From Empedobacter falsenii (GTDB taxonomy: Bacteria; Bacteroidota; Bacteroidia; Flavobacteriales; Weeksellaceae), in NCBI RefSeq assembly GCF_019308355.1, contig NZ_JAAGKM010000002.1:62001-126000 (forward strand): a DNA stretch of 64,000 nt, given 5' to 3'. A program made the position numbers and the translations under genes. Shown piece by piece: positions 4,580 through 21,020 of this stretch (the first letter of the stretch is position 1; the number at the start of each line of letters is the position of its first letter). Below the pieces are notes generated by a model, which was not told the DNA's origin, searched no databases, and worked only from the letters and a program-made list of their open reading frames with translations.

Positions 4580-4620
4580 TTGCTTTTTACGTTGTACGTG
4601 ATATGTTTTACGTTATACGA

Positions 4621-4681
4621 TTTTGTTATTCTGAGCTTTTTAAGAATTATAAAAAACATTTCGACAAGCTCAGTGTGACAG
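4621..4681. repeat. dispersed intergenic repeat fragment
   Basis: The fragment contains TCGACAAGCTCAGTGTGACA (4661-4680), an exact copy of 2390-2409, preceded by TTCTGAGCTTTT. It fills most of the gap between the GH13 and GH97 genes. Confidence 0.6.
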
Positions 4682-4686
4682 TAATT

Positions 4687-6543
4687 CTATTTCATCAATT
4701 CAATAATCATCGAAGATTTTCCATCAATTGTGATTTCACCGTTTGGATGAATTGTGAAATCTTGATTCGATAAAATATCTTTTCCAGTATGATATCCTTT
4801 GATCGATTCTTCAAAACGATCCAATTGGAGGGTTTGCTTATCTAATTTATTATTTAAAATCACCATTACCGATTCGTTGTCATTGTATCGGAAATACACA
4901 TAGACATCATTGATTGGTGCATAATGTTTGGTTTTACCGGAATGAATCACCTCTTTATTTTTACGCCAATTGAATACTTTCGCTGTAAAATCATAGAACG
5001 CTTTTTGCGTTGCTGTTCGTGAATTTGGATTAAATGCATTTTGTGTATCAGACTTCCAACCACCAAGAAAATCTTGACGAATTGCTGCATCTCCACCAGT
5101 ATTTTTATCTCCAGCCATACCGATTTCAGTGCCGTAATAAATTTGTGGAATTCCACGAACCGTTCCGATTAAAGTCGTTGCTAGTTGATACGGCTTAATA
5201 TCTCCTTTGTAGATTTCGTTCCAACGTTCGGTATCGTGATTTTCAAAAAAGACCAATAAATTATTGATGTCTGGATATAAGAAATCATTCGTGAATGATT
5301 CGTAGATTTTCACCAAACCTTTATCCCACGATTCTTCTTCCTGAAAAGCTTTCGTCATATTTGCATACAACGAAAAATCCATCACCGCTGGTAAATTCGA
5401 ATTGTACCCCGCCATTTCACCGATTTTCGAATCTTTTTGCCAATACGATACATGAGCTGGCGAATGCATCCACGCCTCTCCTACTACATTTAGATTGGGA
5501 TATTCATCTGTAATTGCTTTTACCCAAGTTGCCATTCCTTCTTTGTTATTGTAAGGATATGTATCTACACGTAAACCTCCTAATTCGGCATATTCTATCC
5601 ACCAAATGGCATTTTGAGTGATGTACTTTAATACTAATGGATTTGCTTGATTGATGTCTGGCATCGTCGTATCGAACCAACCATTTAATGCGCCTATTTT
5701 ATCAATCTCTGAAGCATTAGGATCAAATTGGGTTGTTGTTCTATAATTCGAACGACGGAATCCATTTTCTCCTTCTGGAAATGTATGGATCCAATCTTTT
5801 GAAGGTAAATCCTGAATCATCCAATGTGAGATTCCCCAGTGATTCGTGACATAATCTTGAATCAAATACATTCCACGTTGATTCAATTTCTGAGACAATT
5901 CACGGTATTCTTCGTTTGTCCCGTAACGACCATCAATTTTATATAAATCGGTTTGAGCATACCCGTGATACGAATATTCTTTTTCATTGTCTTCGTTTAC
6001 TGGAGTTAACCAAACTGCAGTGGCTCCTAAATTTTGGATATAATCTAAGTTGTTGATAATTCCTCGTAAATCTCCTCCGTGACGACCACCTGGCAATTGA
6101 CGATTAACTTTCTCACGCAATTCTTTTTTCGAATCATTGCTTTCATCTCCATTGGCGAAACGATCCGGCATAATTAAATACACCATATCTTTTGACGTAA
6201 AAGATGTTCGATTTGCAGAATTTGGCTGACGATTTTTTAACTCGTATGTATACGAATCAACGATTTTATTTTTGTTTTTGATGTTAATTTTGAATGATGA
6301 TTTGTTTACTTCATTCGTATTAATCGTTACAAAAACATAATTTGGATTTTCAGTTTTCTGTAAATTTTGAATTTTTACATTATCCGATAATTCAATATTG
6401 TATTTACTAATATCTTTTCCATAAACCAGAATTTGAACTTCTGGATTTTTCATTCCTTTCCACCAAAACATTGGCTCTACTTTTTGAATTTGTGCAAAAG
6501 CTAATGTTGATAGGAAAGATGATAATAATAGTATTTTTTTCAT
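4687..6543 (-). CDS. susA: GH13 alpha-amylase/neopullulanase-type enzyme (SusA-like)
   Basis: This 618-residue protein has a signal peptide (cleavage near LAFAQ, residue 18) and is probably periplasmic. An N-terminal beta-domain of roughly 100 residues precedes the GH13 barrel, as in cyclomaltodextrinase/neopullulanase enzymes; SusA of B. thetaiotaomicron has nearly the same length. All four conserved GH13 regions are visible: QDYVTNH with Asp230, GLRVDTYPY with nucleophile Asp327, VVGEAW with acid Glu356, and FFENHDTER with Asp437. It would cleave imported malto-oligosaccharides or cyclodextrins into short products for the GH97 and GH65 enzymes. It is separated from the upstream GH65 gene by about 260 bp with a terminator-like hairpin, so it may start its own transcript. 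Confidence 0.94.
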   Translation of the reverse strand: MKKILLLSSFLSTLAFAQIQKVEPMFWWKGMKNPEVQILVYGKDISKYNIELSDNVKIQNLQKTENPNYVFVTINTNEVNKSSFKINIKNKNKIVDSYTYELKNRQPNSANRTSFTSKDMVYLIMPDRFANGDESNDSKKELREKVNRQLPGGRHGGDLRGIINNLDYIQNLGATAVWLTPVNEDNEKEYSYHGYAQTDLYKIDGRYGTNEEYRELSQKLNQRGMYLIQDYVTNHWGISHWMIQDLPSKDWIHTFPEGENGFRRSNYRTTTQFDPNASEIDKIGALNGWFDTTMPDINQANPLVLKYITQNAIWWIEYAELGGLRVDTYPYNNKEGMATWVKAITDEYPNLNVVGEAWMHSPAHVSYWQKDSKIGEMAGYNSNLPAVMDFSLYANMTKAFQEEESWDKGLVKIYESFTNDFLYPDINNLLVFFENHDTERWNEIYKGDIKPYQLATTLIGTVRGIPQIYYGTEIGMAGDKNTGGDAAIRQDFLGGWKSDTQNAFNPNSRTATQKAFYDFTAKVFNWRKNKEVIHSGKTKHYAPINDVYVYFRYNDNESVMVILNNKLDKQTLQLDRFEESIKGYHTGKDILSNQDFTIHPNGEITIDGKSSMIIELMK

Positions 6544-6554
6544 GTTTTTTGTTT

Positions 6555-6720
6555 TTTTGATACCTCGACAAGCTTTGTATGATATTTACTTTATTGTCAT
6601 TTTGAGTTTATCAAAGAATCTTTTTTAAATTCTCTGTCCAGCTGAACTTGTTTCAGCTTCTCATTCTCTGCTTCATGCGATCCTGAAATGAATTCAGGAT
6701 GACTTTTTTAAAATACGTTT
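6555..6720. repeat. dispersed intergenic repeat fragments
   Basis: The fragments include CTCGACAAGCTTTGTATGA, ATTTTGAGTTTATCAAAGAA, and GAACTTGTTTCAGCTTCTCA followed by CCTGAAATGAATTCAGGATG, which is a short inverted repeat. They are related to the blocks at 2265-2412 and 61684-61835. Confidence 0.55.
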
Positions 6721-6754
6721 TCAGAATAAACTTAGAACTTAAAACATCTATTCT

Positions 6755-6793
6755 AAATAAAAATACCCTGAAAACCGAAGCCTTCAAGGTATT
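6755..6793 (-). terminator. terminator-like hairpin after GH65 gene
   Basis: On the minus strand AATACCTTGAAGGC, a TTCG tetraloop and a complementary GTTTTCAGGGTATT arm are followed by TTTATTT, 13 bases after the stop codon at 6806. Confidence 0.75.
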
Positions 6794-6805
6794 AGATTCC
6801 CTTTA

Positions 6806-9103
6806 TTAAATCGAAGGCTGAACAACTACTTTCTGGTCGAAAACATAAACCTCTAACGGTTCTGTTCCTTCCAATTCAAATGTTGTTTCTCCTTTATTTA
6901 CAATAACTTTTAGGATTTGATGACGGAAATTTACTTTAAATGTAAAACCTTCCCATTGTTCTGGTAAACGTGGCTCAAAATACAATTGATCGTTTTTCAC
7001 ACGCATTCCACCAAATCCTTCTACAATCGACATCCAAGTTCCAGCCATAGATGTGATGTGTAATCCTTCGTGAACTTCTTTGTTATAATCATCTAAATCT
7101 AAACGAGAAGTTCTCAAATAAAATGTATATGCTTGCTCCATTCTTCCTAACGTTGCTGCTTGGATGGAATGAACACAAGGCGATAATGATGATTCGTGAA
7201 CCGTTAATGGTTCGTAAAAATCAAAATGTTTTTCTAATTGATCTTTCGAAAATTGATCTTCGAAATAATAGAACGATTGTAAAACGTCTGCTTGTTTGAT
7301 ATAAGCTGAACGTAAAATTCTATCCCAAGACCATTTTTGATTAATCGGACGTTCTTCTTTTGGTAATTCAGAAACAGGTGTTAAATCTTTATCCAAGAAA
7401 CCATCTTGCTGTAAATAAATTCCTAATTCTTCACTGAATGGAAAATAAATATTCTCTGCAACTTCTTTCATTTCTGCTAATTCAGCATCAGTAATACTTC
7501 TCTTTGCAGCGATTCGAGCGAAATCCTCTGGATAATTTGTTTTGACGTTTTCAACTTGTTCCAACAAATAATTCATACACCATTGTGCACAATAATTTGA
7601 ATGGAAATTGTTGTTGACATTATTTTCATATTCGTTAGGTCCCGTAACTCCTAACATCACATATTGTTTTTTGTCGTTTGACCAATTCACACGCTGTTTC
7701 CAAAAACGTGCAATTCCTAATAAAACCTCTAAACCAGCTTCTGGAATATACGTTTGATCTCCCGTAAAACGAACATAGTTGTAAATCGCAAATGCAATAG
7801 CTCCATTACGGTGAATTTCCTCGAATGTAATTTCCCATTCGTTATGGCATTCTTCACCATTCATCGTAACCATCGGATACAAAGCTGCACCTTTGTTGAA
7901 GCCTAATTTTTCTCCATTTTCAATCGCTTTATCCAATTGATTAAAACGATACATTAATAAGTTTCGCGCAACTTCTTGATTTTTTGTTACCATGTAAAAT
8001 GGCAAACAATATGCTTCTGTATCCCAATATGTAGAACCTCCATATTTCTCTCCCGTAAAGCCTTTTGGACCGATATTCAAACGCTCATCTTTTCCAGAAT
8101 ACGTTTGATTTAATTGAAAAATATTAAAACGAATACCTTGTTGCGCTTTTGTATCTCCTTCTATAGTGATATCAGCCATTTCCCAAATCTTTGCCCAAGC
8201 TTCTTTTTGGTTTATTAACAATTGTTCATAACCTTGTTCATTTGCTTGAGATAATACATTTTCGGCAGCGTTAATTAATTCATTTTTAGGATGATTTGTC
8301 GAAACTACATAACCTCCAAATTTCTCAATTGTCGCGGTATCATTCGCTTTTACCTCAACTTCATATGTAAATTCTACTTTTGTTTCAGTTTTAACATCAC
8401 TTGTTGGTGTATTTTGTTGATAACTTCCATTTACCAAGATTTTATTCTGCATAAATGTTACGACTTCAAAATGAGTTTTGAACGTACGCGCTTGTACAAA
8501 ACCTTGTTCACCTTTAATTTCAGAAAAAATTGGTTCCCAAAAAATCTCTTCCCAGTTCGCATCTTCGTTCTTTACAGCTGCATCAACATAAGGTTTGAAG
8601 ACAATTTTCGCATCATCATTGATTGGTTTGATGTCATATTTAATTGCTCCTAATTCATCTAAATCAGCAGAAAGAAAACGTCGAACAAAAACCTCAATTT
8701 CTAATCCTGAAGGTAAAATCGCAATAAATGAACGATCCAATAAACCTTCTTTCATATTCAATTCGCGACGGAAATTTTTAACTTCTTTACAAGTGTTTAA
8801 ATCAAATTTTTCACCGTTAATTTCGATGTCAATTCCAATCCAAACTGGCGCATTTAATACTTTTGCAAAATATTCTGGATAACCGTTTTTCCACCATCCC
8901 ACTTTTGTCTTGTCAGGATAATAAACGCCGGCAATATAGCTTCCTTGAAATGTATCACCTGAATAAAATTCTTCGAAATTGGCACGTTGTCCCATTGCTC
9001 CATTTCCGATAGAAAATAAACTTTCAGACGATTTTACACGATCTTTTTCAAACCCTTCTTCGATAATTGACCACGCATTCGGGATGATATAATCTTGATT
9101 CAT
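6806..9103 (-). CDS. GH65 family maltose phosphorylase-like enzyme
   Basis: This 765-residue cytoplasmic protein (no signal peptide) belongs to glycoside hydrolase family 65. Visible features are the substrate-site stretch GSTYWDTEAY (residues 356-365), and GVTGPNEYENN with Glu491, which corresponds to the general acid of bacterial maltose phosphorylases; a C-terminal beta domain closes the protein. The reaction would be maltose plus phosphate giving glucose and beta-glucose 1-phosphate. The product fits its neighbour: the beta-phosphoglucomutase gene lies 27 bp upstream on the same strand, so the pair converts maltose to glucose and glucose 6-phosphate. Trehalose or kojibiose phosphorylase activity is possible within GH65, but the starch-locus context favours maltose. 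Confidence 0.9.
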   Translation of the reverse strand: MNQDYIIPNAWSIIEEGFEKDRVKSSESLFSIGNGAMGQRANFEEFYSGDTFQGSYIAGVYYPDKTKVGWWKNGYPEYFAKVLNAPVWIGIDIEINGEKFDLNTCKEVKNFRRELNMKEGLLDRSFIAILPSGLEIEVFVRRFLSADLDELGAIKYDIKPINDDAKIVFKPYVDAAVKNEDANWEEIFWEPIFSEIKGEQGFVQARTFKTHFEVVTFMQNKILVNGSYQQNTPTSDVKTETKVEFTYEVEVKANDTATIEKFGGYVVSTNHPKNELINAAENVLSQANEQGYEQLLINQKEAWAKIWEMADITIEGDTKAQQGIRFNIFQLNQTYSGKDERLNIGPKGFTGEKYGGSTYWDTEAYCLPFYMVTKNQEVARNLLMYRFNQLDKAIENGEKLGFNKGAALYPMVTMNGEECHNEWEITFEEIHRNGAIAFAIYNYVRFTGDQTYIPEAGLEVLLGIARFWKQRVNWSNDKKQYVMLGVTGPNEYENNVNNNFHSNYCAQWCMNYLLEQVENVKTNYPEDFARIAAKRSITDAELAEMKEVAENIYFPFSEELGIYLQQDGFLDKDLTPVSELPKEERPINQKWSWDRILRSAYIKQADVLQSFYYFEDQFSKDQLEKHFDFYEPLTVHESSLSPCVHSIQAATLGRMEQAYTFYLRTSRLDLDDYNKEVHEGLHITSMAGTWMSIVEGFGGMRVKNDQLYFEPRLPEQWEGFTFKVNFRHQILKVIVNKGETTFELEGTEPLEVYVFDQKVVVQPSI

Positions 9104-9130
9104 TTTGTTTGTTGTATATAGTTTGTATAA

Positions 9131-9787
9131 TTATTGATTGATTAATTCGAACAAGAAATCCTCTGAGATTTCAGTAAAATTTTTAAAGTTGTATTTCGCT
9201 TCATTCAAAACTGAATCTTCTCCAATTCCGATGCTTGTCATTCCTGCAACATTTGCTGCTTCAATTCCTGCAACAGAATCTTCAAATACAATTGAATTTT
9301 CGTTTGTTTGATTCGCTTTTTTCGCTCCAACGATAAAAACTTCTGGATCTGGTTTTGCGTTAGAAACATCGTTTCCATCTACGATATCATCGAAATAATT
9401 TAGAATATTAACTTTCTCTAAAATTGGACGTGCATTTTTAGAAGCTGATCCCAAAATAATTGGTTGATTGTTTTCTTTTAGAAAGTTTAAAACGTCCATA
9501 ACGCCTGGTAAAATTTCAGAATCGTCCATCTTATCAATGTATTCTAAATATTCTTTGTTCTTCTGAATTAACCATTCGTTTTTCTGCTCATCAGAAGCTT
9601 CAACATTTCCCAATCCAAGAATAATTTCTAATGATCGCACACGAGAAACACCTTTCAATAATTCGTTATGTTCGTGCGTAAAATCGATGTTTAGATTATT
9701 CGCTAATTTTTTCCATGCTAAATAATGGTACTTTGCAGTGTCGACGATGACACCATCTAAATCAAAAATAAATGCTTTAGTTTTCAA
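9131..9787 (-). CDS. pgmB: beta-phosphoglucomutase
   Basis: This 218-residue HAD-superfamily protein converts beta-glucose 1-phosphate to glucose 6-phosphate in the cytoplasm. The phosphorylation motif FDLDGVIVDT puts the nucleophile at Asp9 and acid/base at Asp11; LGSASKN, NAKPDPE and FEDSVAGIEAA are the later HAD motifs, and the alpha-helical cap lies between. The length is usual for PgmB. It sits 5 bp downstream of the symporter gene and just upstream of the GH65 gene, so the three genes look co-transcribed. This context favours PgmB over a generic HAD phosphatase. Confidence 0.93.
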   Translation of the reverse strand: MKTKAFIFDLDGVIVDTAKYHYLAWKKLANNLNIDFTHEHNELLKGVSRVRSLEIILGLGNVEASDEQKNEWLIQKNKEYLEYIDKMDDSEILPGVMDVLNFLKENNQPIILGSASKNARPILEKVNILNYFDDIVDGNDVSNAKPDPEVFIVGAKKANQTNENSIVFEDSVAGIEAANVAGMTSIGIGEDSVLNEAKYNFKNFTEISEDFLFELINQ

Positions 9788-9792
9788 AATGA

Positions 9793-11139
9793 TTATGCTT
9801 TGATTGGTTCATCCACATCTTTTACGCGCGTTACAAAAAGTGCTGCAATAATTAGCGCAACACCGCTGGTAACAATGGCGAAAATTGGATTATCGTGATA
9901 TAAATATTTTACAATTGGACCGCCTAACAATGCGTTGACGATTTGAGGCATACAAATGAAGAAATTGAAAATTCCCATGTAAACACCCATTTTTTTCGCT
10001 GGAATTGCTCCCGCTAAAATTGCATAAGGTATCGATAAGATACTTGCCCAAGCGATTCCTACTCCGATCATGGAAAGGATTAGTAATTTTGGATCGTGAA
10101 TAAAATAGATTGAAATTAATCCTAATCCTCCACAAATTAATGAAATAGCATGTGTTGTTTTTCGACCAAATTTTAAGGCTATTGCTGGTAAAAAGAAGGC
10201 GAATATTGCAGAAATTCCGTTGTAAACTCCGAAGATAATTCCAACCCAATCTCCTGCTTTTTGATATGTTTCTGAATGGGTATCACTCAAAGACAAACCG
10301 TACACATGATGCGCGATTGCTGGCGTAGCAAATACCCACATTCCGAATAATGCAAACCACGTAAAGAATTGTACCAAACCTAATTGTTTCATCGTTTTTG
10401 GCATATTTCCAAAATCGGTAAAAATCTGTGTTAAGCTTGCTTTTTCTTCAACAATTGGTTCTCTACCTTCTGCTTTTTCGAAAGCGTCTAATTCTTCTGG
10501 CGAATATTCTTTTGTTGTAAAAATGGTGATTAAAACGGTTACAATAATTGCAATTGCTCCAATAATGAATGATAAAATTAAGTGAAACGGAACTTCTCCT
10601 TCCGCTGCAACACTTGAAACACCAAACCAGTTGCTCAAAATATAAGGTAACCACGAACCCACAACAGCTCCTAAACCAATAATTACAGTTTGAATTGAAT
10701 ATCCTAATGTACGTTGATCCGAAGGCAACATATCTGCTACAAATGCACGCATCGGTTCCATCGCGATATTGAATGAAGCATCCATTATCATCAAGAATCC
10801 AGCACCCATCCATAATGCAGGCATCAATGCCGTAAATGCACCTGCTTGTGGCATTAAGATTAATCCGAAAGAAGCCAATAAAGCTCCTACTAAAAAGTAT
10901 GGTTTTCTTCGTCCAAATTTAGACCAAGTATTATCTGAATAATGACCAATAATAGGTTGAACAATCAATCCCATTAGCGGTGCAACAATCCAAAACCAAG
11001 ACAATTCGTGCACATCGGCACCAAATGAACTTAGAATACGGCTCGCATTTGCGTTTTGCAAGGCGAAACCCATTTGAACTCCTAGATATCCGAAACTTAA
11101 ATTCCAGATTTCAAGAAATCCTAATCTACGCTTTCTCAT
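9793..11139 (-). CDS. MFS/GPH-type sugar symporter, probable maltose transporter
   Basis: This 448-residue inner-membrane protein has about twelve hydrophobic segments. The early loop GHYSDNTWSKFGRRKPY resembles the G-x3-D-x-GRRRP loop of the GPH/SLC45-like sugar-cation symporters. It probably moves maltose or short malto-oligosaccharides from periplasm to cytoplasm, where the GH65 and PgmB enzymes encoded directly downstream act. The gene starts 162 bp downstream of the LacI-type regulator. A polytopic carrier in this place takes the role that other MFS importers play in Bacteroidetes starch loci. The cation and the exact sugar are not visible. Confidence 0.87.
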   Translation of the reverse strand: MRKRRLGFLEIWNLSFGYLGVQMGFALQNANASRILSSFGADVHELSWFWIVAPLMGLIVQPIIGHYSDNTWSKFGRRKPYFLVGALLASFGLILMPQAGAFTALMPALWMGAGFLMIMDASFNIAMEPMRAFVADMLPSDQRTLGYSIQTVIIGLGAVVGSWLPYILSNWFGVSSVAAEGEVPFHLILSFIIGAIAIIVTVLITIFTTKEYSPEELDAFEKAEGREPIVEEKASLTQIFTDFGNMPKTMKQLGLVQFFTWFALFGMWVFATPAIAHHVYGLSLSDTHSETYQKAGDWVGIIFGVYNGISAIFAFFLPAIALKFGRKTTHAISLICGGLGLISIYFIHDPKLLILSMIGVGIAWASILSIPYAILAGAIPAKKMGVYMGIFNFFICMPQIVNALLGGPIVKYLYHDNPIFAIVTSGVALIIAALFVTRVKDVDEPIKA

Positions 11140-11165
11140 TATCGTAATTTTTTTATGTATTTTAC

Positions 11166-11186
11166 GATAAGCGTTTTATGCTTATC
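11166..11186. promoter_or_regulatory. inverted repeat upstream of the symporter gene
   Basis: GATAAGC (11166-11172) and GCTTATC (11180-11186) form 7-bp arms around a 7-base spacer, 27-47 bases before the symporter start. It contains GCGTTTT, a partial match to the 16-bp palindrome at 12422. It could be a weak regulator site or an attenuating hairpin. Confidence 0.35.
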
Positions 11187-11190
11187 AAAA

Positions 11191-11222
11191 CTATATTTTT
11201 GTAATTTGAGAAGTAAAAATAT
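11191..11222. promoter_or_regulatory. AT-rich inverted element shared with the susC control region
   Basis: The arms ATATTTTT and AAAAATAT flank a 14-base centre. The 15-mer GAGAAGTAAAAATAT at 11208-11222 is identical to 12497-12511 upstream of susC, and the preceding TATATTT-GTAAT part is also similar. It lies between lacI and the symporter gene. Its function is unknown; a shared regulator site is an inference. Confidence 0.4.
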
Positions 11223-11301
11223 GTTTTGATTTGTTTACAATGTTAAAACTTTTTTTTGGGATTATTGCAACTGTAACAATTATTTAACCAAAAAAAACTT
11301 A

Positions 11302-12321
11302 CTAAATCGTTGTAGTTTCTCTGTGTAATAATTCTGTTCCGACAACTTCGGTAATGTAATGCTCATGCTCGTTTTCTGACTCTAATTTTTGAATCAATAA
11401 ACGCGCTGCAATCTCACCCATTTTGAATGCATTTTGTTTGACTGTAGAAATGCTTGGAATTGAGTTCTTGGAAATTACACCATCTGTAAAAGCTATTAAA
11501 TGTAATTCTTCTGGCACTTTGATTCCTTTTTTCAGTGCTGCTCTCAACACTTTTACGGCATATAATTCATTTACTGCCATTACTGCGTCAAATTTATTTT
11601 TTTCGAAAAACTCATCAATCATAGTGTCCAACTGACTCTCGTCTTCTACACGCAAAATCAAGTTTTCGTCAACTGCAATTCCATTCGCTTCTAATGTTCT
11701 TTTATATCCTTCGGTTCTTAAGCGTCCAACACTTATATAATCTGGCGTTGTGATAAAACCGATTTTCTTGCGTTCTTTACTTATAAAATACTGAATTGCT
11801 TCTTGTGTCGCAAGTACATCATCAATAATCACTTTATCAGTATAAACCTCACGCGTTACACGGTCGAACATCACAACTGGCATTCCTTGGTTGATGATTT
11901 CTTTGATATGATGATAATCTTTTTTGGCTTGAGTTTCTTTCGAAAGAGAAATCACAAATCCGTCTATACTACCCGCTGCAAGCATCTCCATATTAATCAC
12001 TTCACGTTCGTACGATTCATTTGACAAACATATTAAGACATTATAACCATATTGATTGGCTAAATTTTCGATTCCACTAATTACCATCGCAAAAAAATCG
12101 TGAACGATTTCGGGAATAATCACGGCAATGGTTTTCGTTTTACGATTCTTTAGACTTAATGCTATATTATTCGGTTTGTAGTTGTATAATTTTGCAAATG
12201 CCTGAATCTTTTGTTTCGTTACAGCACTAATCTCTTCGCTATTTTTCAACGCCTTAGAAACCGTTGATATCGAAACATCTAACTCTTTTGCAATCTGTTT
12301 TAATGTCAAATTCTTTTTCAT
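11302..12321 (-). CDS. LacI-family transcriptional regulator of the maltodextrin locus
   Basis: This 339-residue regulator has a LacI-type helix-turn-helix at residues 4-50 (LKQIAKELDVSISTVSKAL, then the hinge YKPNNIALSL) and a periplasmic-binding-protein-like sugar domain (about 65-339) with the usual VVMFDR and VGRLRTEGY segments. The length is normal for the family. It is divergent from susC and upstream of the symporter, PgmB and GH65 genes, so it probably controls both arms in response to maltose or a malto-oligosaccharide. The perfect CG-centred palindrome at 12422-12437 in the divergent gap is the likely binding site. Whether it represses or activates cannot be told from sequence. Confidence 0.93.
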   Translation of the reverse strand: MKKNLTLKQIAKELDVSISTVSKALKNSEEISAVTKQKIQAFAKLYNYKPNNIALSLKNRKTKTIAVIIPEIVHDFFAMVISGIENLANQYGYNVLICLSNESYEREVINMEMLAAGSIDGFVISLSKETQAKKDYHHIKEIINQGMPVVMFDRVTREVYTDKVIIDDVLATQEAIQYFISKERKKIGFITTPDYISVGRLRTEGYKRTLEANGIAVDENLILRVEDESQLDTMIDEFFEKNKFDAVMAVNELYAVKVLRAALKKGIKVPEELHLIAFTDGVISKNSIPSISTVKQNAFKMGEIAARLLIQKLESENEHEHYITEVVGTELLHRETTTI

Positions 12322-12421
12322 AATCTTCTTTCTACCTTAACCATCAATCTTATTCTACTAATTTCCGTCTTTTTTATTAAAAATTAACATGCTATAACAA
12401 TTAATTTAATTATTTATTAAC

Positions 12422-12437
12422 ACGAAAACGTTTTCGT
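12422..12437. promoter_or_regulatory. 16-bp perfect palindrome, probable LacI-family operator
   Basis: ACGAAAACGTTTTCGT is a perfect palindrome with the central CG typical of LacI-family operators. It lies in the 224-bp divergent gap, about 100 bp upstream of the regulator start and about 47 bp upstream of the susC -7 element. Confidence 0.75.
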
Positions 12438-12483
12438 TTAACTAGTTAGTGTATTACATACACAATCAATCAATTAAACAACT

Positions 12484-12511
12484 TATATTTGGTAATGAGA
12501 AGTAAAAATAT
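12484..12511 (+). promoter_or_regulatory. susC promoter -7 element and adjoining AT-rich element
   Basis: TATATTTG at 12484-12491 matches the Bacteroidetes -7 consensus TAnnTTTG, 54 bases before the susC ATG. It is followed by GAGAAGTAAAAATAT at 12497-12511, shared with 11208-11222. No clear -33 TTG is seen, which would fit an activator-dependent promoter. Confidence 0.55.
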
Positions 12512-12545
12512 AAATTAATAATTAACGAAACAAAACAAAAAATAT

Positions 12546-15464
12546 ATGAGGATTTTAAAACAATCTCTTCTAGCATTAGTTTTATCAAGCCCTGCTATTT
12601 TATCTGCACAAACTGCGATAAAAGGAACAGTACAAGATAGCGCTAATAACACGGCTTTAGCTGGTGCAGATGTTTCGAACATTACAACAGGAGAATCGAC
12701 AGTTTCTGATGAAAAAGGAAATTTTACATTAGAAGCGAACGATGGTGATATAATTGTTATCAGTTTTTTTGGTTATGACGATCAAGAAATAACTTTTGCG
12801 GGACAAACGCAATTACAACTTCGTATGTCTAAAACGACAGAAAACTTGAAAGAAGTAGTTGTAATTGGATATGGTACAGCTAAAAAAGAAGATGTCACAG
12901 GTTCTGTAAATCAATTAAATTCAGAAGATTTCAACAAAGGATCAATCACTTCTGCGCAAGAATTAATGACAGGGAAAATCGCTGGTGTTGTGGTAACATC
13001 TGCTGGTGGAGCTCCTGGTGACGGTCAAAACATTATCATTCGTGGTAATAGTTCGTTATCATTAAACTCTCAACCATTATATGTAGTTGATGGTGTTCCT
13101 TTATCTGAAGTAAATATTGGAGGTTCTCGAAATCCTTTGGATTTCTTAAATCCTAACGACATCGAAACGATGACTATTTTGAAAGATGCTTCTGCAACTG
13201 CCATTTATGGTTCTCGTGCTGCGAATGGGGTTGTAATGGTTACAACTAAAAAAGGAAAAGGAAAAAAATTCCGTTTTAATTATAATTCAATTACATCAAT
13301 TTATCAACCAGAAGGTTATATTGATGTAATGAATGCAGATCAATTCCGTGAATTGGTAAAATCTGTAGGAACAGCTGACGAAATTTCTCGTTTAGGTAAC
13401 GCAAATACAGATTGGCAAAAAGAAATTTATAGAACAGCTGTAGGTTTTGATCACAACTTTAGTGCAACAGGAAATATTGGAGGTAAAATGCCGTCTCGTT
13501 TTTCTATTTCTAACACAGATCAAGATGGTATTTTGAAAGGAGATAACATCAATCGTACAACAGCTTCTATGAACTTAAGTCCATCTTTCTTAGATGATCA
13601 CTTAAAATTTGAATTGAATGCTCGAGGTTCTTATATCGAAAATCAATTTGCAAACAGAGGTGCAATTGGAGCTGCTTTAGAGTATGATCCAACTCAACCA
13701 GTTTATTCTGGAGCAAATATATTTGGAGGTTACCACACTTGGATGGACGGATCTGTTAAACACAATTTAGCGCCAACTAACCCAGTTGCATTAATCAACG
13801 AAAACAGAGATACATCAGAAGTTCGTCGTTTTGTAGGAAATGCAAAAATGGATTATAAATTACATTTCTTACCATCTGTTACTGCAACAGTTAATGTAGG
13901 TTATGATATTTCTAATGCGAATGGACGTAATGTAACAACTGCAAATATGCCAAACTCTTCTTTGACATGGGATGGTTCTAAAACAACATTTAGCGCACAA
14001 TTCTACAACAAATTATTTGATGCATATTTAACATTCAACAAAGATTTTGGACAACACGGATTAACTGTTGTTGGAGGTTACAGTTATCAATACTTTAATA
14101 CATACAACACCAATTACGATAGTGAATTAGAACAACAAGGTTCTGATCAATTTACATTCGTAGACCGTGATCACTATTCTTTACTATCATACTTCGGACG
14201 TTTAAACTATAATTTTGATAATCGTTACATCTTAACAGCTACTATGCGTGCAGATGCTTCATCAAAATTAAGCCATGACAACCAATGGGGTTATTTCCCT
14301 TCTGCAGCTATTGCATGGAATATCTCTAAAGAAGAATTCTTGAAAGGAAGTTCTGTTGTAAATGATTTGAAATTACGTGTTGGATATGGTAAAGTTGGTA
14401 ATGTGAACGGATTAGGAAACTTCCAATTCTTAACGCGTTATCAAGGATCAGAATCAACTGCTTATTATCAATTTGGTTCAACATTCTATCAAACTTATCG
14501 TCCTCAACCATTTAATGGTGATTTAAAATGGGAAATTTCTAGTACATTAAATGCTGGTATTGATTACTCTTTATTCAAAAATAGAATCTATGGTACATTA
14601 GACGTTTACAAGAAAAAAACAAGTGATTTAATTGCGAGTGTTTATGTAGATCCATTTACAAACTTTGGAAATATGATCGATAAAAATATCGGTGATATGG
14701 AAAATAAAGGAATCGAATTTAGCATCAATGCTGATATCGTAAAAACAAAAGATTTTGATTGGTCTTTTGGATACAACATCGCTTTTAATGATAATAAAAT
14801 TGTCAACTTACCTACTGATAATTTAACAGGTGGTATCGATGGAGGAACTGGTAACAATATTCAAATTCAACGTGAAGGAGAAGAACCATTTAGTTTCTAC
14901 GTATACAAACAAATTTATGATGCAAACGGAAAGCCTATCGAAGGAGCTTACGAAGATTTGAACAACGACGGAATCATCAACGAAAAAGACCGTTATATTC
15001 ACAAAAGTCCTTTCGCAAAAGTAACAATGGGATTCAATACATTCTTCCGTTACAAAAATTGGGATTTAAGTGCAACTGCTCGTGCTAATATCGGAAACTA
15101 TGCTTACAATAACATGGCTTCGTCTAAAGGTTACAGCAAAAAAGCGACAGGAAATGGTCAAAACTATTTATCTAATGTGCTTTCAAGCTACTACAACACA
15201 GGTTTCACAAGTATCACAGAAACTAATTTGTTAAGTGACCACTTTATAGAAGATGCATCTTTCTTCCGTATTGATAACATTACATTAGGTTACAACCTAA
15301 AACAAGCAATCAAAGGATTAGATATTCGTCTTTATGGAGCGGTTCAAAACGTAGCTGTATTCACAAATTACAGTGGTTTAGATCCTGAAATTTACCGCGG
15401 AATTGATAATAGTTTTTATCCAAGACCGAGAACGTATGTATTTGGTTTAAATGTTAATTTCTAA
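12546..15464 (+). CDS. susC: SusC/RagA-family TonB-dependent outer-membrane transporter
   Basis: This 972-residue outer-membrane protein imports malto-oligosaccharides using TonB energy. A signal peptide ends near ILSAQ (residue 22); a carboxypeptidase-regulatory-like domain covers about 24-95; the SusC signature stretch LKEVVVIGYG is at 101-110; a plug domain follows with LYVVDGVPL and ATAIYGSRAANGV; the 22-strand barrel runs to the C-terminus, which ends in Phe as in other outer-membrane barrels. It heads a plus-strand operon: susD starts 10 bp after its stop. The start is preceded by the operator-like palindrome and a TAnnTTTG element. Confidence 0.96.
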   Translation: MRILKQSLLALVLSSPAILSAQTAIKGTVQDSANNTALAGADVSNITTGESTVSDEKGNFTLEANDGDIIVISFFGYDDQEITFAGQTQLQLRMSKTTENLKEVVVIGYGTAKKEDVTGSVNQLNSEDFNKGSITSAQELMTGKIAGVVVTSAGGAPGDGQNIIIRGNSSLSLNSQPLYVVDGVPLSEVNIGGSRNPLDFLNPNDIETMTILKDASATAIYGSRAANGVVMVTTKKGKGKKFRFNYNSITSIYQPEGYIDVMNADQFRELVKSVGTADEISRLGNANTDWQKEIYRTAVGFDHNFSATGNIGGKMPSRFSISNTDQDGILKGDNINRTTASMNLSPSFLDDHLKFELNARGSYIENQFANRGAIGAALEYDPTQPVYSGANIFGGYHTWMDGSVKHNLAPTNPVALINENRDTSEVRRFVGNAKMDYKLHFLPSVTATVNVGYDISNANGRNVTTANMPNSSLTWDGSKTTFSAQFYNKLFDAYLTFNKDFGQHGLTVVGGYSYQYFNTYNTNYDSELEQQGSDQFTFVDRDHYSLLSYFGRLNYNFDNRYILTATMRADASSKLSHDNQWGYFPSAAIAWNISKEEFLKGSSVVNDLKLRVGYGKVGNVNGLGNFQFLTRYQGSESTAYYQFGSTFYQTYRPQPFNGDLKWEISSTLNAGIDYSLFKNRIYGTLDVYKKKTSDLIASVYVDPFTNFGNMIDKNIGDMENKGIEFSINADIVKTKDFDWSFGYNIAFNDNKIVNLPTDNLTGGIDGGTGNNIQIQREGEEPFSFYVYKQIYDANGKPIEGAYEDLNNDGIINEKDRYIHKSPFAKVTMGFNTFFRYKNWDLSATARANIGNYAYNNMASSKGYSKKATGNGQNYLSNVLSSYYNTGFTSITETNLLSDHFIEDASFFRIDNITLGYNLKQAIKGLDIRLYGAVQNVAVFTNYSGLDPEIYRGIDNSFYPRPRTYVFGLNVNF

Positions 15465-15474
15465 GAAAACTACA

Positions 15475-17100
15475 ATGAAAAAGATTAAAATTTCAACATA
15501 TATTTTAGCTGCGGCATTGGCTTTCTCTGTTTCTTCATGTCATGATGATTTAGATTTAATGCCAAATGATCCAGATACTTATACACAATTTGATGTATTC
15601 AAAGATGTTGCTACTGCAAAATCTGCTTTAGCAAAAGTATATTCTTCTTTAGCACTTACTGGACAAAAAGGTCCAGCGGGAAGTGGAGATATTCAAGGTA
15701 TTGACGAAGGTGCTTCTCAATATACTCGTTTAATGTTCAACTTAAATGTATTAACAACAGACGAATCTATTGTTGGCTGGGGAGATCCAGGTTTACCAAA
15801 CTTGCATGAGATTTCTTGGGGAGCAAGTAACAGTTTTGTTGAAGCGATGTATTATCGTTTAGCACAAACCGTTTCTTTCTCTAATTCATTTATTGCAAAC
15901 GCTGAAGCTTTATCAAGCACAACTCCAGAAGTGAAAGAATATGTAGCTGAAGCGCGTTTCATTAGAGCATATGCTTATTATAGCTTAATGGATTTATATG
16001 CGAATGTTCCGTTAGTAACAGAAGTTTCTTCTGAATTACCGAAACAAAGCAATCGTAAAGAGATTTTCACTTTCGTTGAAAGCGAACTAAAAGCTATCGA
16101 AGCTGAATTAAAAGCTGGTCGTACAAACGAATACGGACGTGTAGACAAAGCAGCTGCCGAAGCATTATTATCTCGTTTATATCTAAATGCAGAAACTTGG
16201 ATTGGTGAAGCAAAATATACAGAAGCCATCACTTATTCTAAATTGGCTATGCAAGCTGGATATACGCTTAACATAACTGATGGAAATAAAAATGGTTCTG
16301 CTTATGACGAATTATTTTTAGCTGATAACAATACGAATGGCGCGCAGAACGAAGCTATTTTCGTTTTAAATTTTGACGGAAATAATTCTCGTACATATGG
16401 AGGTTCTACTTTCTTAGTAAAAGCTGCAATTGGTGGAAAAATGACAGCTGCTGATTATGGTGTAAATGGTGGATGGGGAGGTCCTCGTTCTACAAAAGCA
16501 TTGGTGAATCAATTTACAGATGCTGTAACAACGAAAGACAGTAACGGAAATCCAACTGCATGGAAAGATAAACGTGCGATGTTCTTTACAGATGGACAAA
16601 CATTTGAAATTAACAACATAGGTACATTTGGAGAAGGTTATGCTGTTTACAAATGGTCAAATAAACGTTCAGACGGAAAAAGTGCAAACGACGCAACAGG
16701 AGAATATGTTGACACAGATGTTCCTATAATTCGTTTAGCAGAAGTTTATTTAAACTATGCCGAAGCTGTTTTACGTGGAGGAACTGGTGGTGATCGTGCA
16801 ACTGCATTGAGCTTAATCAACGAATTAAGAACTCGTGCATACGGAAATACATCAGGTAATATTACTGACGGACAATTAAACTTAGATTTCATTTTAGCAG
16901 AAAGATCAAGAGAGTTGTACTGGGAAGGAACGCGTAGAACGGATTTAATTCGTTTCAGTAGATATACAAATAATTACAATTGGCCTTGGAAAGGAGGCGT
17001 TCAAAACGGAACTTCTGTAGATGCTACAAAAGCTATCTTCCCAATTCCAAACAATATTATTGTCATTAATCCAAACTTAACTCAAAACCCAGGTTATTAA
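15475..17100 (+). CDS. susD: SusD/RagB-family starch-binding outer-membrane lipoprotein
   Basis: The ATG at 15475 is chosen over an in-frame upstream ATG at 15451 because it gives a proper lipoprotein signal MKKIKISTYILAAALAFSVS with lipobox Cys22. The mature protein (541 codons in all) has the SusD features: a helical TPR-like scaffold with EARFIRAYAYYSLMDLYANVPLV in the N-terminal part and the conserved C-terminal ILAERSRELYWEGTRRTDLIRF segment. It forms the surface lid of the SusC channel and binds oligosaccharide. It begins 10 bp after susC and is followed after one base by the SusE/F-like gene. Confidence 0.95.
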   Translation: MKKIKISTYILAAALAFSVSSCHDDLDLMPNDPDTYTQFDVFKDVATAKSALAKVYSSLALTGQKGPAGSGDIQGIDEGASQYTRLMFNLNVLTTDESIVGWGDPGLPNLHEISWGASNSFVEAMYYRLAQTVSFSNSFIANAEALSSTTPEVKEYVAEARFIRAYAYYSLMDLYANVPLVTEVSSELPKQSNRKEIFTFVESELKAIEAELKAGRTNEYGRVDKAAAEALLSRLYLNAETWIGEAKYTEAITYSKLAMQAGYTLNITDGNKNGSAYDELFLADNNTNGAQNEAIFVLNFDGNNSRTYGGSTFLVKAAIGGKMTAADYGVNGGWGGPRSTKALVNQFTDAVTTKDSNGNPTAWKDKRAMFFTDGQTFEINNIGTFGEGYAVYKWSNKRSDGKSANDATGEYVDTDVPIIRLAEVYLNYAEAVLRGGTGGDRATALSLINELRTRAYGNTSGNITDGQLNLDFILAERSRELYWEGTRRTDLIRFSRYTNNYNWPWKGGVQNGTSVDATKAIFPIPNNIIVINPNLTQNPGY

Positions 17101-17101
17101 G

Positions 17102-18127
17102 ATGAAAAATTTTATAAAATATATTTCGTTAGCTTGTGCGAGTATTTTTGCCTTAAGCGCATGTAACGATGATGAAGATATCATCAAATTAGATCCCTCA
17201 AATTTTGTTGCACCGAAAGTAGAAACACCTGCTTCATCAACAATTGAATTATTAGAAGAAAATGCTGCAAATACAGCAATGACATTTAATTGGAGTGCCG
17301 CAAATTATGGAACAAATACTCCTCCTAAATATGAATTACAAATTGATGTAAAAGGAGATAATTTTGAAAATCATCAAGTTCTTACTTCAACTTCAACATT
17401 AACAGCTGATGTTACCGTAAAAGAATTGAATTTAGCAGTTATTGCTTTAGGATTAGAACCTTTTAAAGAAGGAGAAATAGAATATCGTATTGTCTCTACA
17501 GTTGGTACTCCTGGTTCTCAACAGTTAATTTCTAATGTCAATATATTAAAAATAACGCCATATCCAACAGATTTATCTACAAATTGGGGTGTTGTTGGTT
17601 CTGCTACTCCTAACGGTTGGGACGGGCCAGATGTTCAATTTTGGAAAACTGATGTTACAAATGTATTTGTAGCGTATACAGATTTAAAAGCTGGTGAAAT
17701 CAAATTCCGTCAAGACAACAAATGGGAGTTAGATTATGGTGGATCTAATGGAAAACTTGAAAAAGGAGGTAAAAACATCGCAGTAGATGCCGGTACTTAC
17801 AAGATAACTATGGACTTAACAAATCTAACTTATAAATTAGATAATTATTCTTGGGGATTAGTAGGTGACGCTACAGCAAACGGATGGGATGGTCCAGACC
17901 AAAAATTGTCTTATGATGGTACTTTAGATGCTTGGACTATTACTACAACATTAAAAGATGGAGAATTTAAATTCCGTTTAAATAATGATTGGGGAACAAA
18001 TTTTGGTGGTACAAGTAATGCAGGAGAATTAACAGACAAAGACGGTACTAACATCAAAATAAAAGCTGGGAAATATAAAATCACAGCTAATTTCAACAAG
18101 AAAACTTATACAGTAGAAGCTCAATAA
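17102..18127 (+). CDS. SusE/SusF-like surface lipoprotein with two starch-binding-type modules
   Basis: This 341-residue lipoprotein (lipobox LSA-Cys21) has a SusE-like N-terminal beta domain (about 35-150) followed by two tandem related modules at about 161-247 and 250-340. Each module starts NWG(V/L)VG-type, then NGWDGPD, then (I/F)KFR and an end like AGTYKIT; the NGWDGPD and Trp positions are the probable sugar-contact elements by analogy with SusE/SusF starch-binding modules. It would hold starch at the cell surface for SusCD and the amylase. It starts one base after the susD stop and is followed by a strong hairpin terminator, so it closes the susCDE unit. Confidence 0.9.
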   Translation: MKNFIKYISLACASIFALSACNDDEDIIKLDPSNFVAPKVETPASSTIELLEENAANTAMTFNWSAANYGTNTPPKYELQIDVKGDNFENHQVLTSTSTLTADVTVKELNLAVIALGLEPFKEGEIEYRIVSTVGTPGSQQLISNVNILKITPYPTDLSTNWGVVGSATPNGWDGPDVQFWKTDVTNVFVAYTDLKAGEIKFRQDNKWELDYGGSNGKLEKGGKNIAVDAGTYKITMDLTNLTYKLDNYSWGLVGDATANGWDGPDQKLSYDGTLDAWTITTTLKDGEFKFRLNNDWGTNFGGTSNAGELTDKDGTNIKIKAGKYKITANFNKKTYTVEAQ

Positions 18128-18156
18128 AATTTTTTCTCATCAACAAATAATTTTTT

Positions 18157-18198
18157 AAAAGCCATTAAAATTCAATTACGTTTTTTAATGGCTTTTTT
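18157..18198 (+). terminator. rho-independent terminator of susCDE unit
   Basis: AAAAGCCATTAAAA pairs with TTTTTTAATGGCTTTT and is followed by a T-run. The stem is nearly the same as that of the terminator at 21028-21059. Confidence 0.85.
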
Positions 18199-18215
18199 CT
18201 AAAACTACACAAAAC

Positions 18216-21020
18216 ATGAAAAACATTCTATCTATTTTAATGCTTTTAATGGTAATATCTTTTACCAAAGCACAAATTACAACAACTCCTTCACCACCCG
18301 AAGCAAACCAAGCAGTTGTAATAAACTTCGATAAAACAGGAACAGGTCTTGCCAATTATTCAGGAGATATTTATGCGCATACAGGCGTAACTATTGATGG
18401 AAAACAATGGGAAAATATAATTGAAAGTTGGGGAAATAATACCACTCAACCCAAATTAACTTTCGTTTCTGGATCAACCTACAAATTAGAAATCCCTACA
18501 TCTATTTATCAATTCTATGGAGTTGATACTTCTAAAAATATTACAGCAATAGATGTTGTTTTTAGAAGTGCAGATGGAAAACAACAAACTACGGATCTTT
18601 CTATTTCGGTAGGTTCTTTCAAAGTTACTTTAACTAATCCGCTCGAAAATTCAATTACAAATGTTTCTTCAGGATCAAGTTTTAACATCAAAGCGATAGC
18701 TACAAAATCTGCTAATTGGACATTATCTGCTAACGGAACTCAAATTGATGCATTAAATAATTCAACTTCTTTTGATAAAAATTATACCATTTTACAAAAT
18801 CAGAATTATACATTAAATGCAACTTTTAATGGTCAAACAATAAGCAAATCTTTTACAATTAATATCAAACCAACGGTTAAAGATGTAGCCATTCCATCTA
18901 ATTTACATGAAGGAATTAATTATTTGAATAATGATTTTACAAAAGCATATTTGGTTTTATACGCTCCACAAAAAGAGTTCATTCATGTAATCGGAAGTTT
19001 CAATAATTGGCAACTTTCTGATCAATATGTGATGAATCGAGATACAACTAACAAGGATTTATATTGGATTGAATTATCTAATCTTAAAGCAAGTGAAATC
19101 TATACGTTTCAATATCGAACAAGTGATGGAATCAAAACTGCAGATCCTTATTCGACTTTAGTTTTATCGCCTTATGATGATCCGTATATTACCGCAGCAA
19201 CTTACCCAAATATGCCTGTATATCCTACTGGACAACAATTTGAAGTTTCGGTTTTACAAACAAATCAAGCAAAATACAATTGGAAAGTTTCAAATTTCAA
19301 TCGCCCAAATAAAGAGAATTTGATGATTTACGAATTATTAATTCGTGATTTCAATTCGACAAAAACATGGCAATCTTTAATTGATGATTTTGATTATTTC
19401 AAAAAATTAAACATTAACGCAATCGAAGTTATGCCCGTAATGGAGTTTGAAGGAAATATTTCTTGGGGTTATAATACAGCTTATCATCTTGCTTTGGATA
19501 AAGCTTATGGACCAGCAGATAAAATGAAAGAATTCATCGATTTGTGTCATCAAAATGGAATTTCAATCATTTTAGATGTTGCTTTAAATCATGTTTATGG
19601 TCGATCTCCGTTGGTTAGAATGTGGATGAATGATCCCGACAATGATGGTTTTGGAGAACCAACTGCTATAAATCCTTATGTTAATCAAACTGCAAAACAT
19701 AGTTACAATGTTGGATACGATTTAAATCATCAATTAACACCAACTCAAAATTATGTACAACGTACATTAAAACATTGGATTGAAGAGTTTAAAATTGATG
19801 GATTTAGATGGGATTTAACAAAAGGATTTACACAAAATTGTACACCTTCTGATGAAACTTGTACAAACGGATATCAAGCTGATCGTGTAGCAATTTTAAA
19901 AAAATATGCAGATATGCAATGGACAATTGATCCGAATTCCTACATCATTTTTGAGCATTTAGGAAATAATGGTTCAGCACAAGAGGAAACAGAATGGGCG
20001 AATTATCGCATTAACGAAGGTAAAGGAATTATGCTTTGGGGTAAAGCGACTAATAATTTTAATCAAAATACAATGGGATATGCTTCGGATAGTAACTTTG
20101 ATTGGTTGAAGCATACTGTAAAAGGTTTTACGAAAAAACATTTGGTTGCCTATGCAGAAAGTCATGATGAAGAAAGAATGATGTACAAGAATTTACAATA
20201 TGGTGCATCATCAGGAACTTATAATATAAAAGATTTAAAAACTTCTTTGGAAAGACAAAAAGCTCTTGGTGCAGTTTTATTTACAATTCCTGGTCCTAAA
20301 ATGTTGTGGCAATTCGGAGAATTAGGATATGATTACTCGATAAATCATTGCGAAGATGGAACAAATAATGACGGATGTCGCACCAATCCAAAACCTATTC
20401 CAAGCGAAATTGGTTACTTAACAAATGCCGATAGAAAATCTGTTTATGAAGTTTGGTCAAAAATTATTGGTCTTAAATTAAACAACAAAGTTTTCGAAAC
20501 TGATAATTATACAATTACATCTGGAGATTTAAAACCGCGTATTCAGATTACAAATAATTTATTATCGTCGTCTGATTTATATGAGGTAATTGTTATTGCA
20601 AACTTCACAACAAGCACTCAAGCAATTGCGCCACTTTTTCCATTTACAGGAAATTGGTACAATTTGATGGACGAAACAACGCTGAATGTCACCAATACAA
20701 ATTCATCATTTACAGTTAATCTAAATCCAGGTGAATTTAGAATTTTCGGGAATGCAAAAGCAAATTTATCAACAGATAATATTGAGGTTAATTCAGAAAA
20801 AATCTCTGTAACTCCAAATCCAGTTTCTTCCTCTTTTTCATTAAATATTAATTCAGAAAAAGTAAAAATCTATGATTTAACAGGAAAACTGATCAAAGAG
20901 TTTTCAGGAAAATTTTCAGCGATACATCAATTTAACATCAAAGAATTACCAAAAGGTATTTACATTCTTGACATTGAAGCTAAAAATCGAAAATCGTCGG
21001 CGAAACTGATTAAAAATTAA
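18216..21020 (+). CDS. secreted GH13 alpha-amylase with type IX secretion sorting domain
   Basis: This 934-residue multidomain amylase has a signal peptide to about residue 19, beta-sandwich domains to about 220, an E-set/CBM48-like domain near 235-315 (VIGSFNNW), and a GH13 barrel with all conserved regions: ILDVALNH, FRWDL with nucleophile Asp533, IIFEHLG with acid Glu580, and AESHDEE with Asp651. The last 75 residues (about 860-934) are a type A T9SS sorting domain: TPNPVSSSFSL, IYDLTGKLI, and LPKGIYILDIE, ending in LIKN. It should be exported across the outer membrane and cut starch outside the cell, the role SusG plays as a lipoprotein in Bacteroides. It has its own terminator on each side, so it may be transcribed apart from susCDE. 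Confidence 0.93.
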   Translation: MKNILSILMLLMVISFTKAQITTTPSPPEANQAVVINFDKTGTGLANYSGDIYAHTGVTIDGKQWENIIESWGNNTTQPKLTFVSGSTYKLEIPTSIYQFYGVDTSKNITAIDVVFRSADGKQQTTDLSISVGSFKVTLTNPLENSITNVSSGSSFNIKAIATKSANWTLSANGTQIDALNNSTSFDKNYTILQNQNYTLNATFNGQTISKSFTINIKPTVKDVAIPSNLHEGINYLNNDFTKAYLVLYAPQKEFIHVIGSFNNWQLSDQYVMNRDTTNKDLYWIELSNLKASEIYTFQYRTSDGIKTADPYSTLVLSPYDDPYITAATYPNMPVYPTGQQFEVSVLQTNQAKYNWKVSNFNRPNKENLMIYELLIRDFNSTKTWQSLIDDFDYFKKLNINAIEVMPVMEFEGNISWGYNTAYHLALDKAYGPADKMKEFIDLCHQNGISIILDVALNHVYGRSPLVRMWMNDPDNDGFGEPTAINPYVNQTAKHSYNVGYDLNHQLTPTQNYVQRTLKHWIEEFKIDGFRWDLTKGFTQNCTPSDETCTNGYQADRVAILKKYADMQWTIDPNSYIIFEHLGNNGSAQEETEWANYRINEGKGIMLWGKATNNFNQNTMGYASDSNFDWLKHTVKGFTKKHLVAYAESHDEERMMYKNLQYGASSGTYNIKDLKTSLERQKALGAVLFTIPGPKMLWQFGELGYDYSINHCEDGTNNDGCRTNPKPIPSEIGYLTNADRKSVYEVWSKIIGLKLNNKVFETDNYTITSGDLKPRIQITNNLLSSSDLYEVIVIANFTTSTQAIAPLFPFTGNWYNLMDETTLNVTNTNSSFTVNLNPGEFRIFGNAKANLSTDNIEVNSEKISVTPNPVSSSFSLNINSEKVKIYDLTGKLIKEFSGKFSAIHQFNIKELPKGIYILDIEAKNRKSSAKLIKN

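Follow-up and report, generated by a model that had tools for sequence, protein, structure and literature searches.

The locus studied here raises the question of what controls a sus-type maltodextrin system that has a LacI-type gene in it, and whether a palindrome between that gene and susC is the control site. In the window (the whole 64,000-nucleotide stretch of Empedobacter falsenii DNA that was analysed), the gene content of positions 2474-21020 is that of a maltodextrin locus. On the forward strand, susC (a TonB-dependent receptor; 12546-15464, from the gene call and a domain scan) is followed by susD (15451-17100) and a susE-like gene (17102-18127), both identified by domain scan, and by a gene for a secreted GH13 alpha-amylase with a T9SS sorting tail (18216-21020; domain and family models). 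The reverse strand carries the gene for a LacI-type regulator of 339 amino acids (P0001; 11302-12321; Pfam LacI and Peripla_BP_1/3, 80 relatives fetched) and, by domain scan, genes for an MFS sugar transporter (9793-11139), a HAD hydrolase that is beta-phosphoglucomutase-like by context (9131-9787), a GH65 enzyme of maltose phosphorylase type by context (6806-9103), a GH13 cyclomaltodextrinase (4687-6543) and a member of the GH97 alpha-glucosidase family (2474-4579). The 224-bp gap between lacI and susC holds ACGAAAACGTTTTCGT at 12422-12437, a perfect 16-bp palindrome centred on CG, just as the earlier note had reported. That note took it for a LacI-family operator in a maltodextrin locus without SusR, a prediction supported by the domain scan, which found no SusR-type regulator among the ten genes of 2474-21020. 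The SusR of Bacteroides also controls a susCD starch system, but with maltose recognised in the periplasm (PMC10316084), whereas the locus regulator here is of LacI type. In its account of such loci, the same source names three Bacteroidota-specific regulators: SusR-like proteins, hybrid two-component systems and ECF sigma/anti-sigma pairs.

By itself, palindromy says little in favour of an operator, because 60 first-order Markov sequences gave a mean of 2.9 perfect 16-bp palindromes and 0.33 CG-centred ones, against four and one (the ACGAAAACGTTTTCGT site itself) in the window. Near matches are not in excess: with up to three mismatches there are two places in the window versus 0.75 expected. 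With up to two mismatches there is no excess in the organism's own genome (five places versus 30 for the reversed pattern), and this deficit has the same direction in all 14 genomes of the genus. The exact 16-mer is present twice in the genome (3,109,962 bp), against 0.0011 copies expected at the window's 32.4% GC, and was found in 10 of the 14 genus genomes versus 2 of 183 other genomes of the family; for the reversed pattern, used as a control, the corresponding counts were 0 of 14 and 5 of 183. The genus has 15 exact copies, seven of them in the lacI-susC gap and eight upstream of one GAPDH gene. Outside the genus, one copy is again in the lacI-susC gap (G055) and the other is inside a coding sequence that by eye is lysS-like (G110). 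A chance palindrome was rejected on the exact recurrence and on the spacing given below; the near matches, being without excess, carry no weight in this. The earlier note had suggested a genome scan with up to two mismatches, with many unrelated copies counting against an operator, and what was found was one other exact copy, conserved and upstream of GAPDH. The palindrome is very probably the operator, as predicted from its sequence, of the adjacent LacI-type regulator.

P0001 is a member of the LacI/GalR family: it has the N-terminal LacI helix-turn-helix (PF00356, 42.4 bits against a cut-off of 27) and a periplasmic-binding-protein-like domain (Peripla_BP_3, 88.3 bits; Peripla_BP_1, 76.6 bits), and a palindromic operator-like site with a central CG lies close to its gene. 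Its best match among the NCBIfam models and, by sequence, among solved structures is CcpA of the Firmicutes, but it scores only 185.6 bits where that model has a cut-off of 442.35; the FruR/Cra model gives 116.5 bits against a cut-off of 385. Since both curated cut-offs are missed, P0001 was filed under neither CcpA nor Cra. From what is general in the family we take the regulator to be cytoplasmic, and it has no counterpart of the tetramer helix found at the C terminus of E. coli LacI. The nearest named relatives of lacI, at six loci in Empedobacter, Algoriella, Chishuiella and Faecalibacter, are 80-96% identical. Flavobacterium-type lacI genes were also found on three contigs titled as Nitrotoga, Bifidobacterium and Bdellovibrio MAGs (L056, L079 and L083), which are probably mislabelled or contaminated bins.

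The centre of the window operator is upstream of both flanking genes, 116 bp from the susC ATG and 109 bp from the lacI ATG, and it lies 54 bp upstream of the predicted susC -7 box, TATATTTG (12484-12491, forward strand; pattern match), which we take to be of the Bacteroidota TAnnTTTG type. The position of about -67 proposed previously thus holds relative to the predicted susC transcription start, but not relative to the susC ATG. The operator was sought, by its half-site pattern, up to 500 bp upstream of lacI in 80 related lacI loci that were kept, mostly from Flavobacterium. It was found in 77 of them, and L029, L053 and L057 have no such pattern within that distance. The consensus is AACACGAAAACGTTTTCG, with one subgroup reading AACACTAYCACGTTTTCGTA, and no covariation was seen between the recognition helix and these two operator types. 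With a -7-like box accepted as TAnnTTT[ACG] or one of three variants, and picked by pattern in AT-rich DNA, the distance from operator centre to susC box is 52 bp in 68 loci, 53 bp in three and 54 bp in four; only L070 and L078 do not fit. When boxes were sought 20-90 bp from the centre, 52 bp led with 68 loci, the next distance being 42 bp with 24. Between operator and box the sequence is poorly kept: in the 68 loci with 52 bp, bases 9-44 of the spacer are only 37-44% identical, and 27 of these spacers are mutually less than 60% identical. The lacI side is nearly as constant, at 104-112 bp in 73 of the 77 loci. Of the four loci with a longer lacI side (176-284 bp), L080, L081 and L083 keep 52 bp to the susC box and L078 (180 bp) does not; few as these loci are, they disfavour an operator that is tied to lacI alone. 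Because the susC spacing is fixed, the spacer poorly conserved and 52 bp kept in these three loci, the operator looks like a part of the susC promoter, its separation from lacI being a matter of the three loci. Five loci (L040, L041, L046, L048 and L102) have a further operator-like site in the lacI-susC gap, 28 bp downstream of the first.

Class I activators stand at a fixed upstream place near -66, and because the operator does the same, activation is the best reading that we can infer for it at susC. The LacI-type protein could instead block both divergent promoters until maltose or maltodextrin releases it. Release from the operator by sugar is a trait of the LacI family, the lacI-side distance is itself close to constant, and the operator at gap (below) is where a repressor would sit. 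In the loci L031-L104, moreover, a AAGTTTTCAA block 9-20 bp from the operator centre towards lacI is 98% identical among the 68 loci with 52-bp spacing, and is perhaps the lacI -33 region; it is more conserved than the operator (98% versus 83%), two of its bases being fixed by the search pattern. Nearly 90% of the LacI-family proteins surveyed in PMC4052901 are local sugar-pathway regulators. A blocker, however, need not hold its spacing to the -7-like box, and the operator holds 52-54 bp in 75 of the 77 loci, including three of the four with a long lacI side. We therefore regard simple repression as rather doubtful, and the preference in the earlier note for an activator over simple blocking is supported by the same spacing.

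Downstream of the operator, the susC promoter region contains a dyad, GTGTATTACATACAC (= GTGTANNNNNTACAC), of the type GTGTA-N5-TACAC (12449-12463), with half-sites conserved in the genus. It is exact in 11 of the 12 lacI loci of the genus, with a one-base variant in G055, and its centre is 26 bp (25 in one locus) downstream of the operator centre. We presume that the dyad is the site of a second factor at susC. E. coli CytR works together with CRP, and on that model the bound regulator would act by hindering or helping the factor on the dyad; the half-sites and their distance from the operator are kept while the middle varies in 12 of 13 loci, as this would lead one to expect. In exact or variant form, however, the dyad is absent from all 74 loci L031-L104, and since most of these keep the operator spacing it cannot be the general mechanism, which makes this explanation very improbable. 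Further downstream is a leader motif, GAGAAGTAAAAATATA (12497-12512, forward strand), conserved in the lacI loci of the genus. The sequence GAGAAGTAAAAATAT occurs twice on the forward strand, in this leader (12497-12511) and between lacI and the MFS gene (11208-11222); the repeat in the window may be chance, and the susC copy is the one conserved in the genus.

The idea that the palindrome is a control element of this locus alone was not borne out, for the same motif recurs at the lacI 3' end and at gap, pckA and pgi. Sites in the genus were scored with a weight matrix (PWM) built from the lacI-susC sites only. The second best place in the 64 kb is TACTAAATCGTTGTAGTT at 11300-11317 (score 13.3), which overlaps the lacI 3' end and lies upstream of the MFS gene. 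A site of at least 8.8 is present from 40 nt before to 260 nt after the lacI stop in 48 of the 80 loci, and in 27 of the 48 it is centred at the stop. Looping at susC, which the earlier note had coupled with activation, found no positive support; the weaker second site is this one, 1,121 bp away. The second exact copy in the genome is 248 bp upstream of a gene for a 479-residue GAPDH (gap), and about 93 bp away on its other side a divergent tRNA-Ser gene starts. This distal gap site is strong (19.1-31.1) in 12 of the 14 genus genomes, at 230-264 bp upstream in eight and 446-567 bp in four. The same 12 genomes have a weak proximal site (7.4 or 9.5) 57-64 bp upstream, with a score that falls short of the 99th percentile (10.4) of the best scores given by 300-bp stretches of the window; the gap operator centre stands 12 bp upstream of a box, TACTTTTG, that was read by eye. 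Among 13 other long GAPDH genes scanned for the proximal site, seven score at least 10.9, three 5.8 and three 0.8. Eight genomes have 169-203 bp between the two gap centres, and four have 388-509 bp. Looping at gap is not claimed, because the phase is suggestive in some genomes only and the tetramer helix is missing. In L008, L012 and L014 the distal operator, some 560 bp ahead of gap, is perfectly palindromic and falls within a coding sequence (W-Q-[YH]-E-N-V-F-V-N-L); the homologue of that coding sequence in G061, which has no LacI orthologue, reads WQKSKTFSNL.

At pckA, a site scoring at least 11.9 lies 101-105 bp upstream in 13 of the 14 genus genomes, and the fourteenth (G061) has a different palindrome at the same place. 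Of sixteen pckA loci scanned outside the genus, G207 alone has anything similar, a site of 11.0 at -98. In L140-L154 the stretch from the LacI-type site to the pckA -7 box contains a conserved dyad of the TGACATAAGTCA type or a variant of it; we take this dyad to be FNR-like, and a variant also occurs in G055, which has no LacI-type pckA site. The pgi site scores at least 15.5 in seven of the 14 genus genomes, is weak (3.7-4.7) in three and is absent at that place in four; it was also absent in six Flavobacterium-type genomes and in G055. Its -7-like box, TAAATTTG, is 42 bp from the centre in all ten genomes with a strong or weak site. In 16 loci around further hits in the genus, most sites are inside an open reading frame, the exceptions being upstream of pgi, at a hexuronate-type cluster and at the gene of an outer-membrane protein in G099, and between two genes in G083 (the G099 and G083 genes being named in part by eye). 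A wider motif model, R2, was run genome by genome, with an E limit of 10 and hits on both strands counted. In the own genome, with 150 of 2,434 first-look candidates scored, R2 listed the susC gap, gap, pckA, a place upstream of a uvrB-like gene (C15:10934, unexplained) and the lacI 3' end, and did not list the pgi site although that had been used for the model; this list is no independent test because R2 was built partly from the same or identical sites. Since the same site also precedes genes of central sugar metabolism, the distribution suggests that starch uptake is coupled to glycolysis and gluconeogenesis through a single regulator.

Of the 14 genus genomes, 12 have the LacI orthologue. 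The two without it, G061 and G092, are exactly the two that have neither gap site, a co-loss with one chance in 91 if the two were unrelated and phylogeny is ignored; G092 keeps a proximal gap site with a damaged half-site. In seven of the 12 genomes with the orthologue, P0001 as query (E 0.001) retrieves no further LacI-type protein. G092 has an intact pckA site, and therefore either another factor may use that site or the loss is recent. In G125, the 245 bp ahead of lacI (L177) contain no operator, and the matching named locus, L029, is without susC there; the distal gap sites of this genome have no central CG, the pckA site is weaker (14.8), the pgi site is absent and the proximal gap site is unchanged.

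On its recurrence, conservation and spacing, the palindrome is best explained as the main operator of the divergent LacI-type regulator, acting as an activator of susC with a small central-carbon regulon, and we consider this explanation probable. Regulator binding, sign and effector would then be as follows. A dimer bound to the palindrome would stand some 66 bp ahead of the susC start and would contact RNA polymerase at that promoter, thereby activating susCDE and the amylase gene. The regulon would also take in the MFS-phosphorylase operon, through the site at the lacI 3' end, the long GAPDH gene, with one operator inside the core promoter and one distal, as well as pckA and, in some genus genomes, pgi. 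Position would predict sign: activation with the centre 42 bp (pgi) or 52-54 bp (susC) upstream of the -7 box, repression within the promoter (gap) and perhaps also on the opposite helix face, as at pckA, where the centre is 46-47 bp from the box in all 14 genus genomes, half a turn off. In the most likely physiology, the regulator would be bound when sugar is present, with uptake and glycolysis up and gluconeogenic enzymes down. The positions thus suggest, as a consistent reading, activation of uptake and glycolysis and repression of gluconeogenesis. Should this sign hold, one would expect the long GAPDH to be the gluconeogenic enzyme. The logic resembles that of CcpA, which is one of sugar present.

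The regulator is a LacI-family protein of a known general kind. The family includes several proteins that control central carbon metabolism, among them PckR, GapR, FruR and CcpA (PMC4052901). PckR and GapR of Alphaproteobacteria, with regulons predicted by comparative genomics in that study, likewise have pckA and gap targets, and the sign of PckR was predicted, as here, from site position. GapR has a palindromic operator and PckR a conserved motif, a likeness in kind to the window site. They differ in coming from another phylum and in having genes mostly unclustered with their targets, whereas P0001 is encoded inside a maltodextrin polysaccharide-utilisation locus. FruR/Cra of Enterobacteria is a dual regulator of glycolytic and gluconeogenic genes, and here operator-like sites are found at gap, pckA and pgi; besides missing the FruR/Cra model, P0001 has a predicted sign that is probably the opposite. 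Its putative targets suggest a regulator that does CcpA- or Cra-like work without passing the model of either family. AraQ and MalR1 of Bifidobacterium (PMC6882875) are also LacI-type central-carbon regulators; they are actinobacterial and are set beside P0001 by description only. The string 'flavobacteri' does not appear in the main text of PMC4052901, and a survey of Bacteroides (PMC3878776) gives LacI-family proteins for uronate pathways. Among the matches listed from the open-licence literature, we found no description of the setting seen here, a LacI-type regulator tying a sus-type locus to central carbon flux.

R2 gave 14-57 hits in seven Flavobacterium-type genomes, 10-19 in three genus genomes with the regulator and two each in G061 and G092, counts that alone prove little because chance hits are many at that threshold and genome size and composition differ. 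Among the matches listed, though not for every one, 60 regions around R2 hits were inspected; in eight the site falls within an open reading frame, and many of the flanking genes share no theme. The genes that recur beside these matches are eno (four genomes), a short gene followed by that for pyruvate kinase (pyk; three genomes) and, in two genomes each, class 1 fbp, pdhB, pdhA, gdhA and an acyl-CoA dehydrogenase gene, their names being confirmed by family models with one representative each; those seen once include pckA and a serine ammonia-lyase gene. From operator centre to -7-like box the distance is 52-53 bp at eno (4 of 4), 52 bp at one GH31 gene and 60 bp at pdhB. With imperfect boxes it is 52-53 bp at a sugar MFS gene (other boxes being possible) and 62-63 bp at pyk. 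The spacings of pgi, of susC, eno, GH31 and sugar MFS, and of pyk and pdhB are about one helical turn apart. At fbp and gdhA the operator is downstream of the box (boxes at -29 and -24/-25).

A test of helical phase gave a Rayleigh p of about 0.003 for eight uptake and glycolysis promoters and about 0.04 for four gluconeogenic or catabolic ones, with a permutation p of 0.0018; it is exploratory, since it was done after the distances were known and with groups chosen by the analyst. Left out were pdhA of L290 (boxes at 45 and 47), pckA of G203 (59, imperfect box), the acyl-CoA dehydrogenase of L322 (no box) and the fbp, gdhA, gap, HMG-CoA-lyase-like, biotin-carrier, GH3, AraC-like and unnamed promoters. 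Kept though doubtful were sugar MFS and pyk (imperfect boxes with other candidates), serine ammonia-lyase (46, or 22), L297 (E1-alpha-like, named by the analyst) and the acyl-CoA dehydrogenase of L316 (site inside another open reading frame).

These positions also bear on a Cra-like sign, in which the sugar-free regulator would bind and activate pckA and susC in sugar scarcity, repress glycolytic gap and be released by glycolytic intermediates. For FruR/Cra (described) and PckR (predicted), glycolytic genes are repressed and gluconeogenic genes activated (PMC4052901), and the gap operator in the core promoter and the pckA operator upstream would fit this. The Flavobacterium-type sites, upstream of the -7 box at eno, pyk and pdhB and downstream of it at fbp and gdhA, suggest the opposite, although they may be those of a paralogue, and we hold the Cra-like sign to be unlikely. 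Five of 14 Flavobacterium-type genomes counted have exactly two LacI-type proteins, the orthologue and a paralogue 46-51% identical to it with a near-identical recognition helix, and the central-metabolism sites of these genomes may belong to this close paralogue.

An extension of activation at susC to the Flavobacteriia is conceivable, and we put it forward tentatively. A pair of LacI-type paralogues sharing one operator would form a lineage-wide carbon switch, with activation or repression decided by the helical phase of the operator. Centres 42, 52-54 and 60-63 bp upstream of the -7 box would turn on uptake, pgi, eno, pyk and pdhB, and at fbp, long gap, gdhA and pckA, with sites in the promoter, downstream of it or half a turn off, the effect would be repression. 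The Empedobacter group would have kept only the maltodextrin paralogue, which took over the central targets. If a LacI-type regulator does tie a sus-type locus to central carbon flux, the Flavobacteriia would gain a candidate carbon-control system with a ready list of operators and a simple test, a half-turn shift of the operator. In four Flavobacterium-type genomes (L274, L280, L294 and L303), a high-scoring site was also seen inside a coding sequence, about 400-440 bp from a gene that by eye is Lrp/AsnC-like.
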